DNA of 64,000 nt, from NCBI RefSeq assembly GCF_000964225.1, contig NZ_BAMZ01000005.1, positions 124,001 through 188,000 of the forward strand, read 5' to 3'. Shown here one piece after another: positions 11,898 to 18,441 of this stretch. Both the position numbers and the translations under genes were made by a program. The stretch's first letter is position 1, and each line of letters opens with the position of its first letter. The stretch is from Acetobacter syzygii (GTDB taxonomy: Bacteria; Pseudomonadota; Alphaproteobacteria; Acetobacterales; Acetobacteraceae). The notes beneath the pieces were generated by a model. The model ran no database searches. It saw nothing but the letters and a program-made list of their open reading frames with translations, and was not told the origin of the DNA.

Positions 11898-13284
11898 GGT
11901 TTCCGCTCATACTCGCCCCAGCAGAAGGCGAAAGTGTGGCACACAACGGGACTGCAAAAAGAGATATGGCCCCCGTAACCACAAACCCCAGTGCATAGTC
12001 TGTCATGTTGGCTGGCGTATTGTGGTGCAGCTTGCTCAGAATGGTCAGGGTGCCAGCAGCAATGCAAATGCCAGCCGAAAGCATGATCTGCTGCATGGTG
12101 GAATACAGGCTGGTAGCCGCACTCATGCGGTCTGCGGGAATATCCGCATAGGCAACCGTGTTATAGGCTGAAAACTGGAGCGACTGTGCGGCCCCTGCCA
12201 GCATAAGCACAACAGAGAGCAGCCATAGCGGGTAGGATGGGCGGAAAGCCGCAATCAAAGCAAATACCAGTGCTGCGGATGACCCATTAGCCATAAGAAT
12301 GGTGCGGAAGCCCCAGCGTTTGAGCAACGCAGGCACAAAGGGACGCATGGCAATGGCCCCAATGGGGGCTACAAATGTGACCAGTCCGCTCTGGGCAGCG
12401 CTCAACCCTGCTCCGATCTGCAAAAAAGAGGGAAGCAAAAAGGGCAGGGACCCGACGGCAATGCGCGAGGCAGCCCCCCCAAAAACGGAAATGCGGAATG
12501 TTTGTACACGCATGAGCCGCAGGTCGAGTAACGGGAAAGATGTCCGCCCCGCGTGGTAGGCGTAAATACCTAGCAGAACCAGCCCCACCCCCAGAAAGCA
12601 GGAAACCAGCAGAGGGGAGCCGCTGCCATGGCTGAAAAGTTCAGCAAAAACGGATAGAATGGCTAATCCCCCACCAGCCAGGAACAGGCCCTTTACATCA
12701 AAGGGTGGTGGTGTTGGCTCGCGCACTTCAGGAATATATCGGTAGGTCAGGAACAGCCCGATAACACCAACGGGGATGTTGAGGTAAAAATTCCACCGCC
12801 AGGAGAGCCACGTTGTAATATACCCCCCAACCACCGGCCCCAGGAGTGGGCCAAGGGTTGCTGGCAGCATCATCCATGTCATGGTGCGGACAAGCTGGTC
12901 GCGTGGCGTACTGCGAATGACCGCCAGACGCCCCACAGGCACCATTAAGGCTCCGCCAATGCCCTGTATTGTGCGCATGGCTGCCAAAAACAGCAGGGAA
13001 TGTGCCCGCCCGCAAAAAATTGAGCTGCCAACAAAAATGCAGATCGCCAGCATAAGGATTGTGCGGCTACCCAGCCGGTCTGCCAGTGCGCCGGAGGCGG
13101 GAATAAAAATGGCCAGCCCGATAATATAGGAGGTCAGGGCAACGGATGTGGCCACTGTGTCCACATGCAGGCTGTGGGCAATGGCGGGCAGGGCAGTTGC
13201 CAAAATGGTGCCATCAAGCTGCTCCATAAAAAACATGGAACCAACGATGAGTGCTGTCAGTTGTGTGGAGGTCGGAGAAGGCAT
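11890..13284 (-). CDS. MFS exporter, DHA2-like (HsrA/YieO type)
   Basis: A 464-residue major facilitator protein, hydrophobic throughout. The N-terminus (MFFMEQLDGTILATALPAIA) carries the D-x-T-I-x-x-x-A-L-P signature of the drug:H+ antiporter-2 family. A motif-A-like sequence ALADRLGSRTI follows helix 2, and the PVGRLAVI/LGPVVGGYI region corresponds to motif C. The closest type I recognise is E. coli HsrA/YieO, whose substrates are poorly defined. It is a single gene between the RND operon, on the same strand after a 180-bp gap, and the divergent CsbD-like gene. No regulator is adjacent. It presumably exports a small molecule using the proton gradient. Confidence 0.85.
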   Translation of the reverse strand: MPSPTSTQLTALIVGSMFFMEQLDGTILATALPAIAHSLHVDTVATSVALTSYIIGLAIFIPASGALADRLGSRTILMLAICIFVGSSIFCGRAHSLLFLAAMRTIQGIGGALMVPVGRLAVIRSTPRDQLVRTMTWMMLPATLGPLLGPVVGGYITTWLSWRWNFYLNIPVGVIGLFLTYRYIPEVREPTPPPFDVKGLFLAGGGLAILSVFAELFSHGSGSPLLVSCFLGVGLVLLGIYAYHAGRTSFPLLDLRLMRVQTFRISVFGGAASRIAVGSLPFLLPSFLQIGAGLSAAQSGLVTFVAPIGAIAMRPFVPALLKRWGFRTILMANGSSAALVFALIAAFRPSYPLWLLSVVLMLAGAAQSLQFSAYNTVAYADIPADRMSAATSLYSTMQQIMLSAGICIAAGTLTILSKLHHNTPANMTDYALGFVVTGAISLFAVPLCATLSPSAGASMSGNHR

Positions 13285-13396
13285 GCCTAGTCAGAGACGC
13301 GTTTTTGCGGTCTGATGCAACAGGCGATCGTGCAGATCTCCGGTCGCTCTCATGCGCGGGCCGTTACACAGCGGTTCAGAAAAGGAGAAAGTCGTC

Positions 13397-13702
13397 ATGG
13401 CTAAAGACAAAATCGACACTATCGAAAACAAGATCGAAGCCAAGGTCCGGGACGCCAAGGGACATGTCAAGGATGCCGCAGGTGGCCTGACGGGTGACAT
13501 CGGTCTTCAGGCCGAAGGGAAGTTCGATCAGTTTGCCGGACATGTGCAGGAAGATTTTGCAGACCTGTATGAAGAAGGCGAAAGTGCAGTAGAAAAAGCA
13601 GTGACCTTTGTGCGGGATAAACCATTGCTTTCATTGGGAATTGTGTCTGTTGTGGGCATCCTTCTCGGCTGGCTTTTCTTCCCCCGTCGTAACCGTTCCT
13701 GA
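13397..13702 (+). CDS. CsbD-like stress protein with a C-terminal membrane anchor
   Basis: A 101-residue protein in two parts. Residues about 4-60 are charged and helical, and the stretch DAAGGLTGDIGLQAEGKFDQ matches the repeat-like core of CsbD family proteins (KxxGxxTGdxxLqaEGkxdq). Residues about 70-97 form a DUF883-like tail with one membrane segment (LSLGIVSVVGILLGWLFF) and a basic end. ATG 13397 is chosen because AAGGAGA lies about nine bases upstream; an ATG at 13352 has no such site. CsbD proteins are general-stress proteins of unknown biochemical role. The anchor suggests this one sits at the inner membrane with its helical part in the cytoplasm. Confidence 0.75.
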   Translation: MAKDKIDTIENKIEAKVRDAKGHVKDAAGGLTGDIGLQAEGKFDQFAGHVQEDFADLYEEGESAVEKAVTFVRDKPLLSLGIVSVVGILLGWLFFPRRNRS

Positions 13703-13718
13703 AAAATCATTTGACCGG

Positions 13719-13802
13719 GACTCTTGCGCTCCCGGGTAAAAAAATGCTTCTCCTTCCCTACGGAGTCGCGATTGGTGCGACTCGGTAATTTTAACCGAGT
13801 CG
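13719..13802 (+). promoter_or_regulatory. Cluster of four GANTC (CcrM) sites before rnhB-ccrM
   Basis: GACTC at 13719-13723, GAGTC at 13763-13767, GACTC at 13779-13783 and GAGTC at 13797-13801, all in the 126-bp gap before rnhB. The last two lie in the arms of a perfect 9-bp inverted repeat (CGACTCGGT, 7-nt loop, ACCGAGTCG; 13778-13802). GANTC is the recognition sequence of CcrM, encoded by the second gene of the downstream operon. In Caulobacter the ccrM leader also contains GANTC sites, and their methylation lowers transcription. Feedback control here is inferred. A TTAACC half-site resembling CtrA boxes is present, but not a full TTAA-N7-TTAA site. Confidence 0.65.
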
Positions 13803-13828
13803 TTTCAAGCGGATGGGGAAGGGAAGCA

Positions 13829-14458
13829 ATGCCGGATTTCAGGCACGAACAACAGCATGGCGGTTTGGTTGCCGGAGTGGATGAGGTGGGTCGTGGCCCG
13901 CTTGCCGGTCCGGTTATTGCCGCCGCCGTGGTGTTTGCTGCCGGTGTGCCGGATGACCTTGCCGCTGTTATTGATGATTCCAAAAAATTAAAACCTGCCG
14001 TGCGTGAGGCCATTGCGGAGCGTCTGCCCCATGTGCCCGGCGTGGCTATTGGTGTGGGTGCCGCCTCCACGGCGGAGATCGACCGTATCAACATTTACCA
14101 TGCGTCCCACCTTGCCATGCAGCGTGCTGTTGCCCGTCTGCCGGTCAAACCGGACCATGTGCTGGTTGATGGGAACAAAATTCCGGATTTTGGGTGCAGT
14201 GCAGAGGCCATTGTGGGCGGGGATGGGCTTAGCCTGTCCATTGCTGCGGCTTCTATTGTCGCAAAAGTGGTGCGCGACCGCATTATGGCGCGGCTGGATG
14301 TGCGCTGGCCCGATTATGGATGGGAAAAAAACGCAGGTTATGGCACGGCGGTTCACCGTCAGGCGCTCCTGCAGGTTGGTGTGACCCCACATCACAGAAA
14401 AACATTCGGCACCGTACGTCGGCAAATGGAACATTTAAAAACGGAGACCCGGGCATGA
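13829..14458 (+). CDS. rnhB: Ribonuclease HII
   Basis: A 209-residue cytoplasmic enzyme that cleaves the RNA strand of RNA-DNA hybrids and starts removal of ribonucleotides misincorporated into DNA. The signature [14 protein letters not shown] supplies catalytic Asp18 and Glu19; further acidic residues are Asp about 113 (VLVDGNK) and Asp about 150 (VVRDRIM), completing the four-carboxylate site. The start at ATG 13829 is supported by GGAAGGGAAG directly upstream and by the family length. Its stop overlaps the ATG of ccrM (ATGA), so the two are translationally coupled, an arrangement also seen in other alphaproteobacteria. Confidence 0.95.
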
Positions 14459-15558
14459 GCGGCGCAAAAGCAGTTTCCATGGACCTCCCTCTAGATCAGA
14501 TCCTGCGGGGCGAGTGCGTGGAGACCATGCGCACCCTGCCGTCCGGGTCAGTGGACTGCATTTTTGCCGACCCACCGTACAATCTTCAGCTTCGGGGGGA
14601 ACTGCGCCGCCCGGACGACAGTGTGGTGGATGGTGTGGATGATGACTGGGATAAATTTTCCGACCTGCAGGAATATGACCGTTTTACGCGGGAATGGCTG
14701 AGCGAGGCCCGTCGCCTGCTGCATAAGGATGGCACGATCTGGGTTATTGGTTCGTACCATAACATCTTCCGCCTTGGCGCCATTTTGCAGGATCTGGGCT
14801 TCTGGATCCTGAATGATGTGGTGTGGCGCAAATCTAACCCCATGCCCAACTTCCGTGGTCGTCGTTTTACCAATGCGCACGAAACGCTTATTTGGGCGGC
14901 CCGTAGTCAGGATAGCCGCTACCGCTTTAATTATCAGGCCATGAAAGCTCTGAATGATGATGTTCAGATGCGCTCGGACTGGTATCTGCCCCTGTGCACA
15001 GGCAATGAGCGGCTGCGGAACGAGCACGGGCTAAAGCTGCACCCGACCCAAAAGCCAGAAAGCCTGCTGCATCGTGTGCTGCTGGCCTCCACTACGGTGA
15101 ATGATGTGGTGCTCGACCCGTTCTCGGGCTCCGGCACTACGGCGGCCATGGCCCGGCGTCTGCGCCGCCACTTTGTTGGTATTGAGCGGCATCCGGATTA
15201 TGTGGAAGCCGCCAAGGCCCGCGTAGCCCGTGAAGTTCCGTTGGATGATGACGCCATACAGACCACGCAGGACAAGCGCGAAGCGCCCAAGGTACCTTTT
15301 GGGAGCCTGGTAGAGCAGGGGGCGCTGGTTGCCGGTACGGTACTGAGCGATAAAAAGCAGCGTATTCAGGCCGTTGTTGCGGCGGATGGTACGCTGGTCA
15401 GCGGTGCCAAACGTGGCTCAATCCATAAAATGGGTGCCATGTTGACCAACGCACCATCCTGCAATGGCTGGACATTCTGGCACTTTGAGCGCGAGGGCGT
15501 ATGGCTGCCGCTTGATGTGCTGCGGCAGGAGCATCTGGCCGCAACGGCTGCCCATTAA
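14455..15558 (+). CDS. ccrM: Cell-cycle DNA adenine methyltransferase CcrM (GANTC-specific)
   Basis: A 367-residue beta-class N6-adenine methyltransferase. The catalytic motif DPPY (FADPPYNLQ) is at about residues 38-43 and the AdoMet motif DPFSGSGTT at about 221-229; this order defines the beta class. The insert with [14 protein letters not shown] and the C-terminal domain of about 80 residues ([13 protein letters not shown] through NGWTFWHFE), needed for DNA recognition in Caulobacter CcrM, are both present. Length matches the Caulobacter enzyme (358). The ATG overlaps the rnhB stop; an internal ATG at 14479 is a shorter alternative. It should methylate GANTC after replication and time gene expression. 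Four GANTC sites precede its operon. Confidence 0.95.
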
Positions 15559-15567
15559 CGGGCAGCC
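15546..15567 (+). repeat. Hairpin across the ccrM stop codon
   Basis: GGCTGCCC and GGGCAGCC form a perfect 8-bp stem around ATTAAC; the TAA stop of ccrM lies in the loop. It is followed by A residues rather than T, so it looks more like an mRNA 3'-end stabiliser than an intrinsic terminator. Confidence 0.45.
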
Positions 15568-15600
15568 AAAAAATGGGGCGTTTTCTTCGCCCTTTTAAAA
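15568..15600. terminator. Terminator between ccrM and the ankyrin-type gene
   Basis: GGGCG (15576-15580) and CGCCC (15588-15592) pair around TTTTCTT. An A-run lies on the left and TTTT on the right, so the element can act for both converging genes. The stem is short but well placed. Confidence 0.55.
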
Positions 15601-15615
15601 AGCAGTAAGGGCGGC

Positions 15616-16212
15616 TTAGCTGCCGCCAAAGCCCAGAAAGCCAATGGATGGCTGTGCCGCGCCGCCCGTACGGTCATATCGTGGGTCATGTGCTTTTTCT
15701 TCCACGTCCGCTCCCACATCAGCGCTCCCACCACCACCGACATGCAGGTTGGAGGTGGTGACTGTGCCTGCGCTGTCACCGCTCTGAATGCTGCTGGAAT
15801 TGCGCAGGGAGAGTAGCAGAAAGGTAATGGGGTTACGGTTCAGGTCGATGGACATATCCAGCGGGGTCTGCCCCAGAATGTTGTGTCCGTTCAGGTCTGC
15901 ACCACGGTTAATGGCTTCACGCGCGGCGGAAACACTTCCGCGGTTAATGGCTTCAAACAGCGCGACCGTAGGTTCCACGTCCTTGTTGGGGTGGCCGCCG
16001 CCTTCTCCTGCTTCATCATCCCCGCCTTCTGCACCGGGAATACTGGCAGGTGGTGCTGCCCGTTTGGCGGCCTTTGCACTTTCCGCTTTTTCGGAAGCTT
16101 CTGCCGCGGCAGCCTGATCTTCAGCATCATCAGCAAATGCCGGAACCGCCACAAACATGGCAAGGCTGCTGAAAAGCAGAGCGGATGAAGCAAGGCGTGG
16201 AAAACGGGTCAT
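15616..16212 (-). CDS. Secreted or periplasmic ankyrin-repeat-like protein
   Basis: A 198-residue protein starting at ATG 16212. Residues 1 to about 27 form a signal peptide (basic start, LASSALLFSSLAMFVAVPAFA, then ADDAED). A low-complexity Ala/Glu/Lys linker follows, then an acidic Gly-rich stretch. At about residues 75-130 there is an ankyrin-type pair (TVALFEAINRGSVSAAREAI, then NRGADLNGHNILGQTPLDMS), with the usual A-I-x-x-G and G-x-T-P-L-D features. The C-terminus is Gly-rich and ends in GFLGFGG. It is probably exported and protein-binding; no partner is evident. It converges on ccrM and precedes nothing on its own transcript. Confidence 0.65.
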   Translation of the reverse strand: MTRFPRLASSALLFSSLAMFVAVPAFADDAEDQAAAAEASEKAESAKAAKRAAPPASIPGAEGGDDEAGEGGGHPNKDVEPTVALFEAINRGSVSAAREAINRGADLNGHNILGQTPLDMSIDLNRNPITFLLLSLRNSSSIQSGDSAGTVTTSNLHVGGGGSADVGADVEEKAHDPRYDRTGGAAQPSIGFLGFGGS

Positions 16213-16281
16213 TGTCTGTCCATCAATACAGGTAACCTTTAGCGTATCACACCGCATGGGAGCGGAAAAGACGGCCCGGTA

Positions 16282-18441
16282 TTATCCGGCCCGACCCTCC
16301 CGCCACCATGCGGCAAACAGCAGGGCCAATGCGAGCAGCATGGCAAGGGGGGCAGGGAGGAGTGGTATGGGCGTTCTGCCGGTAACCACATGAGCATTCC
16401 GTTGGGCAAAAGCCAGCCAGTCAGTTCCGGATAATGCGCCAGATGTTGCCATGCGCGGCGTGGGGATGCGTGCCGTTGAAGGGGCATCGCCCAGCCAGAA
16501 AATGCCTCCACCCGTCATTTTAACCATATCGGCAACACGGGTTGCCGTAGTGCGCAGATCAGCCAGTTCGCGCGTGTTATCCTGCTCGGGGGCGGCGTAG
16601 GTTGTGTGCGTTCCGTCTGAGACGCGCCAGATGCCGGATTCCGTAACGGGAATATGGGCAACCTGCGTACCTTCCTGGTCGGTTGTATGCAGGGCAACGG
16701 TCTGCTCCTGCCCGGAGGGGGCGGTGAGCGTAATGGATGTTGCCGCCGGGGTGCCAATGCTGCGGCGGGAGACCTCAAGCGTGTTGGCAGCAATGTTGGC
16801 AGAGAGCTGCTCCTCCTCCAGTTCCGGTTCCTTCATTAACCAGTGCGAAATGCGCCTGAGCAGTTCGGCTTGCGGGCCGCCACCATCTTCCCCGCGGGAC
16901 CAGAGCCATATCTGATCGGATAGGAGCAGTGCTATGCGCCCCTGTTCCACCCGGTCCAGCACCAGCAGCGGGCTGTTCTGCGGGCCGCTCATCAGAACTT
17001 CGCCATGTGTGCTGTCTGGGCGCAGGGCGCGGTACCATGGCCCCCACATGCCGGGAATTGCGCTTGAACTGTTCAGGGCATCAGCTTCGGTGGCAGTTTT
17101 TGGCGCACCGGGGAGGGAGGCCGTAACAGGGTGCCTGCGCCCGGTATCGGTCAAGGTCGGGCGGAAACGGCTGATGAGCATGTTGCTCTGGTCAGGAGGC
17201 ACGTGCGCGGGGAGCACATCGCCCACAGGGGTATCCTGCAAGGAGCCGGGGCCAATAAATTCAGGTCCTGCGGTCAGGAGCAGCCCGCCGCCACGCCGGA
17301 CAAAACTGGCAATGTTTTCCAGATAGCTGTGGGGCAGAATATGCCTGTTTTCAAACCCATCCAGAATGATCAGGTCAAACTGGTTGATTTTTTCCTGAAA
17401 TAATTCCCGCACGGGAAAAGCGATCAAAGCCAGATCGGACAGGGGGGTGCCATCATCTTTTTCCGGCGGACGAAGAATGGTGAAGTGGATCAGGTCAACA
17501 GAGGGGTCGGCCTTGAGCAGCCGACGCCAGACCCGCTCTCCCTGATTGGGTGTGCCAGAAATCAGCAGGACCTTCAGCCGGTCCCGAATACCGGTAATAT
17601 GGGCCACGGTCTGGTTGTTGAGCTGGGATGCTTCCCCCTCCAGAGCCGAAACGGAAAGGCTGACAAGCAGTGGGCCCGGCTGGGTAACAGGGACCGTAAT
17701 GTCCTGTGGTGTGCCGCTGAGTACCTGAATTTGCCGGGGCGCTTCCCCATTGATCCGAACAGTCAGGTCTGCGGGTGTGCCGGGGTGTGTGCCCGGTCCC
17801 ATATCATCCACCTGCACACGCAGTTTGGCTGTCTGGCCTGCAATGGCATAGGGGGGCGCTTCCAGAATACTGAGTTTACGGTCCTTTTCTTCCCCGCTGG
17901 CAGTGAGCAGGACGTGCAGGGGCAGCGTAGTGTGTCTGCCATTTTCCTGTGTGGGGTGCAGGCGGTCGGGTAGGACGGATGGCACATCGGCAATCTCGCC
18001 ATCAGTTATCATCATGGTGCCAGCAAACTGTGCGGCCGGAATGTCTGCTGCGGCCTGCTCCAGTGCATCAAATAATCTGGTGCCCTCATGCCCGTTGCCG
18101 CGCACGGTTACGGTGCGAATGTTCAGCCCCGGCACTTTGGCGTGGGCCAGAGCATCTGCCGCCTGCCGTGCAATGGCAGCGCGTTGGCCAAGCGCCATGG
18201 AAGGAGACTGGTCAACCACCAGCAGGGCGGTCTGGGGGAGGGTTCGCCGCTGTTCATGGTAACGCTGTGGCCCAGCCAGCCAGAGCAGCACAACGGCCAG
18301 AGCGGCCAAACGGAAAATGGCCCCTTTACTCCGGTTGAACAGGCTCCATCCACATAGCACCAAGGCTGCCAGCCCTAGTATGGCCAGTAGCCATAGAGGC
18401 AGTAGCGGGGCAAAACCTATGGAGGCAAAAACGGCGCTCAT
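16282..18441 (-). CDS. Large membrane protein with VWA-like and glutamine-amidotransferase-like regions
   Basis: A 719-residue protein with two N-terminal membrane helices (about residues 8-60) and one at the extreme C-terminus (LAMLLALALLFAAWW). After the helices, TALLVVDQSPSMALGQR has the D-x-S-x-S start of a von Willebrand factor A (MIDAS-like) domain. The middle part includes DLIILDGFENR and FVRRGGGLLLTAGPEFIGPG, the look of a class I glutamine-amidotransferase-like fold with no visible catalytic Cys. It is the last gene of a four-gene operon with MoxR, DUF58 and DUF4159 proteins; its ATG overlaps the upstream stop. The family lacks an assigned biochemical function; a MoxR-dependent envelope complex is inferred. 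Confidence 0.7.
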   Translation of the reverse strand: MSAVFASIGFAPLLPLWLLAILGLAALVLCGWSLFNRSKGAIFRLAALAVVLLWLAGPQRYHEQRRTLPQTALLVVDQSPSMALGQRAAIARQAADALAHAKVPGLNIRTVTVRGNGHEGTRLFDALEQAAADIPAAQFAGTMMITDGEIADVPSVLPDRLHPTQENGRHTTLPLHVLLTASGEEKDRKLSILEAPPYAIAGQTAKLRVQVDDMGPGTHPGTPADLTVRINGEAPRQIQVLSGTPQDITVPVTQPGPLLVSLSVSALEGEASQLNNQTVAHITGIRDRLKVLLISGTPNQGERVWRRLLKADPSVDLIHFTILRPPEKDDGTPLSDLALIAFPVRELFQEKINQFDLIILDGFENRHILPHSYLENIASFVRRGGGLLLTAGPEFIGPGSLQDTPVGDVLPAHVPPDQSNMLISRFRPTLTDTGRRHPVTASLPGAPKTATEADALNSSSAIPGMWGPWYRALRPDSTHGEVLMSGPQNSPLLVLDRVEQGRIALLLSDQIWLWSRGEDGGGPQAELLRRISHWLMKEPELEEEQLSANIAANTLEVSRRSIGTPAATSITLTAPSGQEQTVALHTTDQEGTQVAHIPVTESGIWRVSDGTHTTYAAPEQDNTRELADLRTTATRVADMVKMTGGGIFWLGDAPSTARIPTPRMATSGALSGTDWLAFAQRNAHVVTGRTPIPLLPAPLAMLLALALLFAAWWREGRAG

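Follow-up and report, generated by a model that had tools for sequence, protein, structure and literature searches.

The window, by which we mean the whole 64,000-nucleotide stretch of Acetobacter syzygii DNA analysed here, carries rnhB and ccrM in close succession, and the 126-bp gap that separates rnhB from a CsbD-like gene upstream holds four GANTC sites. Among 80 named loci that encode relatives of rnhB, the 26 best matches are from Acetobacter. The ccrM start and the rnhB stop share 4 bp, which makes it plausible that a single promoter ahead of rnhB serves both genes, as the initial annotation of this DNA had assumed. The same annotation took the downstream gene for that of a CcrM-type methyltransferase. 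This identification is upheld by a domain profile search, in which the product passes the cut-offs for the N6/N4 methylase domain (PF01555) and the RAMA domain (PF18755), and by its best NCBIfam model, which is that of CcrM (NF050803), at 630 bits and thus below the cut-off of 830. The CsbD-like protein ends in a weak DUF883-like glycine-zipper tail that scores below the cut-off. The features of the locus are, in order:

13397-13702: CsbD-like gene, the upstream neighbour of rnhB, kept across the genus Acetobacter
13719-13723: GANTC site 1 (GACTC), immediately before TTGCGC
13724-13729, + strand: TTGCGC, probable -35 element; its TTGC (13724-13727) is without change in 44 leaders
13745-13753, + strand: TGCTTCTCC, probable weak extended -10 element
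13763-13767: GANTC site 2 (GAGTC; GAATC in 6 of 44 leaders)
13763-13783, + strand: alternative hairpin GAGTCGC/GCGACTC, a 7-bp repeat holding sites 2 and 3
13774-13806, + strand: hairpin H2, with a 9-bp core that is extended in relatives; likely part of the 5' leader RNA
13779-13783: GANTC site 3, in CGACTCG context
13797-13801: GANTC site 4, in CGAGTCG context
13829-14458, + strand: rnhB, ribonuclease HII
14455-15558, + strand: ccrM, GANTC adenine methyltransferase

The cluster spans 83 bp (13719-13801) in a window that as a whole avoids GANTC (58 sites, where shuffles average 159.8). When the 58 sites were placed at random, four came this close in 61 of 20,000 trials. Both the positions first given for the sites and the claim that they are denser than chance are thereby confirmed, and the last two sites do lie, as described, in the arms of a perfect 9-bp inverted repeat (CGACTCGGT at 13778-13786 and ACCGAGTCG at 13794-13802, with a 7-nt loop). 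A sample of 314 kb from the same genome (11.7% of it, taking in most of the window's contig and hence the window) holds 359 GANTC sites and only two spots with four GANTC starts within 78 bases, namely the rnhB-ccrM leader and one other. By eye, the second spot reads as recombinase coding sequence. We rejected the leader as a repeated element, since its sole other match in the genome is 14 bases long at an E value of 3.76.

Site 1 adjoins the invariant TTGC, and in all 44 Acetobacter leaders that carry the array this GANTC+TTGC is followed 16-17 bases on by TGNTY. A scan with the sigma-70 consensus finds no match in the leader. Mapped promoters of Gluconobacter are described (PMC5756330) as combining a 'ttGnnn' -35 with a weak -10, and this pattern, together with the fixed spacing of TTGC and TGNTY, places the probable -35 and -10 of the Acetobacter leader at TTGCGC and TGCTTCTCC. 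We infer that transcription starts from this element near 13760. Site 1 would then abut the -35, and sites 2-4 would fall in the first ~45 transcribed bases. The spacer between the putative -35 and -10 is without GANTC in most of the 44 leaders (L065, L066 and L072 have an extra site there), and a further GANTC lies over the putative -10 in 13 of 31 leaders of the group called group 1 below.

Conservation of the four sites in Acetobacter

The genus sample consists of 49 Acetobacter genomes, 48 of which have rnhB. All four GANTC sites are present in 44 of these 48, at nearly constant distances from the start of rnhB and in some genomes accompanied by extra sites. Leaders were aligned in two groups (A1 for the 31 of group 1 and A2 for the 13 of group 2), the starts of L070 and L153 being moved by 1 and 2 nt to reach an ATG. 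On a tree of the rnhB-ccrM coding DNA of the 44 genomes, each of the 16 fixed GANTC bases shows zero changes, a count that is conditional on the array having been kept, as the four array-less genomes of the genus are left out of the alignments. The other 105 leader columns changed 4.05 times on average, and ten of them are without change. Conservation in close relatives, on which the initial annotation had staked its proposal, is thus borne out.

We further observe that the N base varies at sites 1 and 2 while GANTC survives (GAGTC in 3 of 44 leaders at site 1 and GAATC in 6 of 44 at site 2), as predicted for a methylation target. At sites 3 and 4 the N base is unchanged as well in the 44 leaders. 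Four genomes of the genus have ccrM but not the array: the 220 bp ahead of rnhB are free of GANTC in L161, L166 and L169, and L170 has only two sites. L161 (G284) and L166 (G210) come from the two smallest genomes, of 1.5 and 1.7 Mb, and L169 comes from G283. In L153 (G268:C116) a leader with all four sites precedes an rnhB that is read in two frames (residues 1-69 and 69-209), which reflects either a frameshift or a sequencing error.

Hairpins in the leader

A repeat of at least 8 bp with GANTC in both arms is found in 31 of 31 group-1 and 12 of 13 group-2 leaders, reaching up to 16 bp (43 of 44), but inside Acetobacter the null for repeat length is itself high (0.51 and 0.36), the leaders sharing sequence, and the comparison is informative only for other sets. 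In those sets a repeat of this kind is found in 5 of 13 loci from the nearest other genera (null 0.05), in 1 of 14 other loci of the family (null 0.07), and in 2 of 51 loci of the class that have two or more GANTC (null 0.059). H2 is thus rare outside Acetobacter and its nearest genera, which argues against a general methylation sensor; it looks like an Acetobacter elaboration, added late, rather than a general reader of methylation state.

Covariation analysis supports H2 as a hairpin, probably one of the leader RNA. Its covariation score is 0.196 against 0.131 in shuffled alignments, with none of 500 shuffles as high and slid registers at no more than 0.061, and 18 cells have changed on both sides against 6.0 in shuffles (0 of 500). 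Three of five covariation measures lie beyond all 500 shuffles, and two are weak, pairs changed on both sides being matched in 21 of 500 shuffles and pair types in 260 of 500. The covariation is confined to the flanks of the stem (122 Watson-Crick, 36 G-U and 21 other cells), and the GANTC core never varies. Varying and tolerant of G-U as they are, these flanks look like RNA rather than a DNA operator. The initial suggestion that the hairpin lets a regulator tell hemimethylated from fully methylated DNA fares poorly on this account and on that of its confinement to Acetobacter and some of the nearest genera.

The leader as a whole folds at -58 kcal/mol (z -6.1), and z for a 72-nt leader fold runs from -2.7 to -8.0 in 14 group-1 leaders and from -1.1 to -4.1 in 8 group-2 leaders. 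The 7-bp inverted repeat that holds the sites at 13763 and 13779 is mutually exclusive with the 9-bp repeat. Its stem columns pair in 27-31 of the 31 group-1 leaders; in group 2 the change of site 2 to GAATC makes it non-complementary in 6 leaders. A terminator-like call at 13763-13783 was dismissed, one such call being found against 1.0 expected in shuffles.

Two further candidate structures were considered, the first of which was not adopted. A long stem, 13745-13758/13816-13828, would cover the ribosome-binding site; in group 1 its covariation score exceeds all 500 shuffles and it pairs 83.6% of cells, but slid registers also pair 49-70%, and its 5' half overlaps the putative -10. A hairpin around the conserved TTGCGC (13712-13738), with arms that change in group 1 and a weak fold in the majority of the 8 leaders of group 2 that were folded, reaches a covariation of 0.246, above all 500 shuffles, but a register slid by one base scores almost equally (0.238), and the hairpin overlaps the putative promoter. 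It is not called as a terminator by a terminator scan. Extra GANTC sites lie within its arms in L065, L066 and L072. By eye, a small reading frame begins at a conserved ATG near 13744.

These structures allow a rival explanation of the array, in which translation is under the control of an RNA leader, made up of H2, the alternative hairpin and perhaps the long stem over the ribosome-binding site, and GANTC is a by-product of the stem sequence. The stable leader fold and the covariation of H2 fit such a leader, as does the excess of G-U over other non-canonical cells in its flanks, and even the long stem and the TTGCGC hairpin beat all 500 shuffles; the TTGCGC hairpin, however, is nearly matched by a slid register, slid registers of the long stem still pair 49-70% of cells, both structures overlap the putative promoter, and two of the five measures for H2 are weak. 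A by-product of the stem would moreover be expected neither at sites 1 and 2, which lie outside the H2 arms and are equally invariant, nor in a core that never covaries while its flanks do, and the GANTC clusters of the class are almost without such a hairpin. We therefore consider it unlikely that translational control by the leader RNA accounts for the sites.

GANTC clusters before ccrM in the class and the family

We found ccrM in 83 of 114 genomes of Alphaproteobacteria, that of the window included. The class set analysed comprises 69 of the 82 matches outside the window's own genome (29 that arrived as loci and 40 mainly next in the list); the 13 matches omitted include the weakest, and one locus comes from Acetobacteraceae, the rest being one per family. 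In 60 of the 69 loci rnhB lies directly upstream of ccrM, an order that we take to hold in Caulobacter too. The 150 bp before ccrM hold 200 GANTC sites, where the remainder of the loci would predict 18.5, and three or more are present in 39 of 69 loci, against 26 of 12,551 random windows; 18 of the 69 have none or one. Most of the sites (133 of 200) lie inside the rnhB-ccrM gap, and the remainder fall within the terminal part of rnhB or belong to loci where rnhB does not precede ccrM. In control stretches of 150 bp, which may be partly coding, there are 20 GANTC before rnhB in 55 loci and 12 after ccrM in 68 loci, with no locus reaching three in either place. The parallel that the initial annotation drew with Caulobacter, where GANTC sites occur at ccrM, therefore extends well into the class. 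Individual arrays among the class loci (L250-L318) have up to eight GANTC before ccrM.

The sites could in principle reflect ordinary intergenic enrichment of GANTC combined with common ancestry, with no special control of ccrM. GANTC is reported to be over-represented in the intergenic DNA of the class, by more than 1.5-fold on average (PMC3973325), close species share sequence, and the controls may be coding. The excess before ccrM is about eleven-fold, however, and is absent before rnhB and after ccrM, and the lack of any change in 16 fixed bases contrasts with about four changes per column elsewhere in the Acetobacter leader. We hold general enrichment to be a very improbable explanation.

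Of 140 pairs of adjacent sites in the class, 38 are spaced by 9-11 bp, where a rough random model gives 19.1 (sd 4.0). Some restriction-modification methyltransferases repress their own operon directly, and spacing of this kind fits proteins sitting side by side on one face of the DNA. The cluster might accordingly be occupied by CcrM, or by another GANTC binder indifferent to methylation, that represses the operon by its presence, methylation being secondary; the description of CcrM as a dimer (PMC6787082) counts in the same direction. The spacings between sites 2, 3 and 4 in Acetobacter group 1 are instead 16 and 18 bp, and the class has a known methylation-sensitive reader in GcrA, whose gene nearly all the Acetobacter genomes carry, so that direct repression seems to us a rather improbable account.

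Outside the genus, 70 loci of Acetobacteraceae could be scored (14 of 85 were skipped, one of the two genes being absent from the stretch; L200, with a called gap of -576, falls outside the bins, and a few other negative gaps are probably artefacts of start calling). Where the rnhB-ccrM gap is shorter than 20 bp, three or more GANTC precede rnhB in 21 of 28 loci, against 3 of 42 where it is 20 bp or longer. The latter loci have three or more inside the gap in only 4 of 42 cases, and two or more in either place in 13 of 42. By this measure much of the family is without an array, and the contrast between short and wide gaps is confounded by kinship among the loci. Most simply read, the array accompanies the ccrM promoter and came to lie ahead of rnhB in lineages whose two genes became one packed unit; the family data do not by themselves prove such a move.

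Other arrangements in the family are also worth recording. Nine of 60 loci (L026, L030, L190, L205, L211, L212, L219, L233 and L248) have a single GANTC located 28-31 bases ahead of the rnhB start as called, instead of or besides an array, and several of the nine have a TGCTAT-like -10 near the start codon, an arrangement resembling a leaderless promoter whose spacer contains GANTC. In six loci of other genera (L201, L206, L223, L231, L235 and L241) a core resembling GATTC-AAAAGC-GATTCG precedes rnhB-ccrM.

A probable methylation-responsive leader and its relation to known systems

We identified gcrA in 48 of the 49 Acetobacter genomes, including that of the window. An extended motif, YGAKTCG, has been proposed for activation by GcrA (Haakonsen 2015, cited in PMC7987155), and GcrA of Brevundimonas is described in the same source as lacking such an extended motif. 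This context is present at site 3 in 44 of 44 leaders, at site 4 in 37, at site 2 in 13 and at site 1 in none, compared with 31 of 359 GANTC sites in the sample of the window's own genome and 40 of 200 in the class arrays. GcrA itself is reported to cover a larger region on fully methylated than on hemimethylated ctrAP1 DNA (PMC3667746).

The Acetobacter leaders also differ in what they lack. We searched them for a strict CtrA-type box, that is TTAA-N6/7-TTAA or TTAACCAT, and found it within 300 bp in none of 44. We consequently discarded control of the Acetobacter rnhB-ccrM operon by CtrA, which is reported to activate ccrM in Caulobacter (PMC3667746), and the Acetobacter circuit in this respect departs from the Caulobacter one. 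Across the class the strict box occurs in 8 of 69 loci (200 bp). Given its absence from the Acetobacter leaders, methylation may be the main input at rnhB-ccrM.

On balance, we favour a reading in which the promoter and leader that drive rnhB and ccrM respond to methylation through the four sites, as an autoregulatory element probably read by GcrA; the sequence comparisons make this somewhat more probable than its negation. The conserved clusters at ccrM, in Acetobacter and in over half of the class sample, point to a CcrM output that is set by the enzyme's own marks. Passage of the replication fork would leave the cluster hemimethylated and the promoter active, read by GcrA together with the housekeeping sigma factor. 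Newly made CcrM would then remethylate the sites and lower its own transcription, a negative feedback whose shut-off could be steep because several sites all have to be remethylated. In Acetobacter, sites 3 and 4 appear to be built into the leader RNA hairpin as well, for which stability or translation of rnhB are candidate separate roles.

The timing of such a pulse would depend on where the operon lies on the chromosome. In five group-1 genomes the distance of rnhB-ccrM to dnaA is about 0.28-0.30 Mb, and that to the best parB match 0.88-1.1 Mb. In three group-2 genomes it is 0.18, 0.65 and 0.71 Mb from dnaA, with parB about 1.5 Mb away in two and on another contig in the third. These distances come from eight Acetobacter genomes of few contigs (G259, G169, G272, G273, G291, G250, G285 and G249), the chromosomes being taken as circular. 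Early or late replication of the operon is decided by the position of the origin, and the distances given are to dnaA and parB only.

A broader and more doubtful extension, which we offer tentatively from the distribution of sites, is that the class arrays, whose sites are often spaced by about one helical turn, act as a gauge of the cell's CcrM activity, in which ccrM would be shut off only after remethylation of every site and a graded amount of enzyme would yield a steep, self-limiting pulse, that they were kept with the ccrM promoter through rearrangement, and that the Acetobacter hairpin forms a second layer of control. How CcrM comes to be limited to a brief phase of the cell cycle has been examined chiefly in Caulobacter, in which CtrA and Lon are the dominant factors. 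That GANTC arrays (39 of 69 loci, 150 bp) are more widespread than the strict CtrA box (8 of 69, 200 bp) suggests that feedback by methylation could be the more general control, and the role of the array is directly testable in acetic acid bacteria, which are easily grown.

In the open-access literature searched, we found no report of a class-wide array, of its spacing or of its place before rnhB. A comparison of 37 genomes from 2010 gives averages of 0.4-1.5 GANTC per 500-bp promoter of cell-cycle genes and draws no conclusion on control (PMC2877005). For Caulobacter, methylation is stated 'most probably' to act on ccrM (PMC3973325). Methylation control of ccrM has already been considered there, and the Acetobacter leader would be a variant of it.

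The leader shares with structured 5' leader RNAs, such as riboswitches and attenuators, a covarying hairpin and a mutually exclusive alternative. It differs from them in having no Rfam match at E values up to 1 (13280-16300) and in that its invariant letters are those of GANTC, also outside the stem. The resemblance to the GcrA/CcrM promoters ctrAP1, mipZ and ftsZ lies in GANTC near a putative weak promoter, in the presence of gcrA and in the YGAKTCG context of sites 3 and 4; unlike these promoters, the Acetobacter array has four or more sites and reaches into the leader, and site 1 is upstream of the putative -35 rather than in the spacer. The ccrM promoter of Caulobacter crescentus likewise serves a GANTC methyltransferase gene and has GANTC sites of its own, but is activated by CtrA, for which the 44 Acetobacter leaders have no strict box. 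In Acetobacter, by contrast, the sites precede rnhB, with ccrM overlapping its end, and two of them are placed in a hairpin that looks like RNA.
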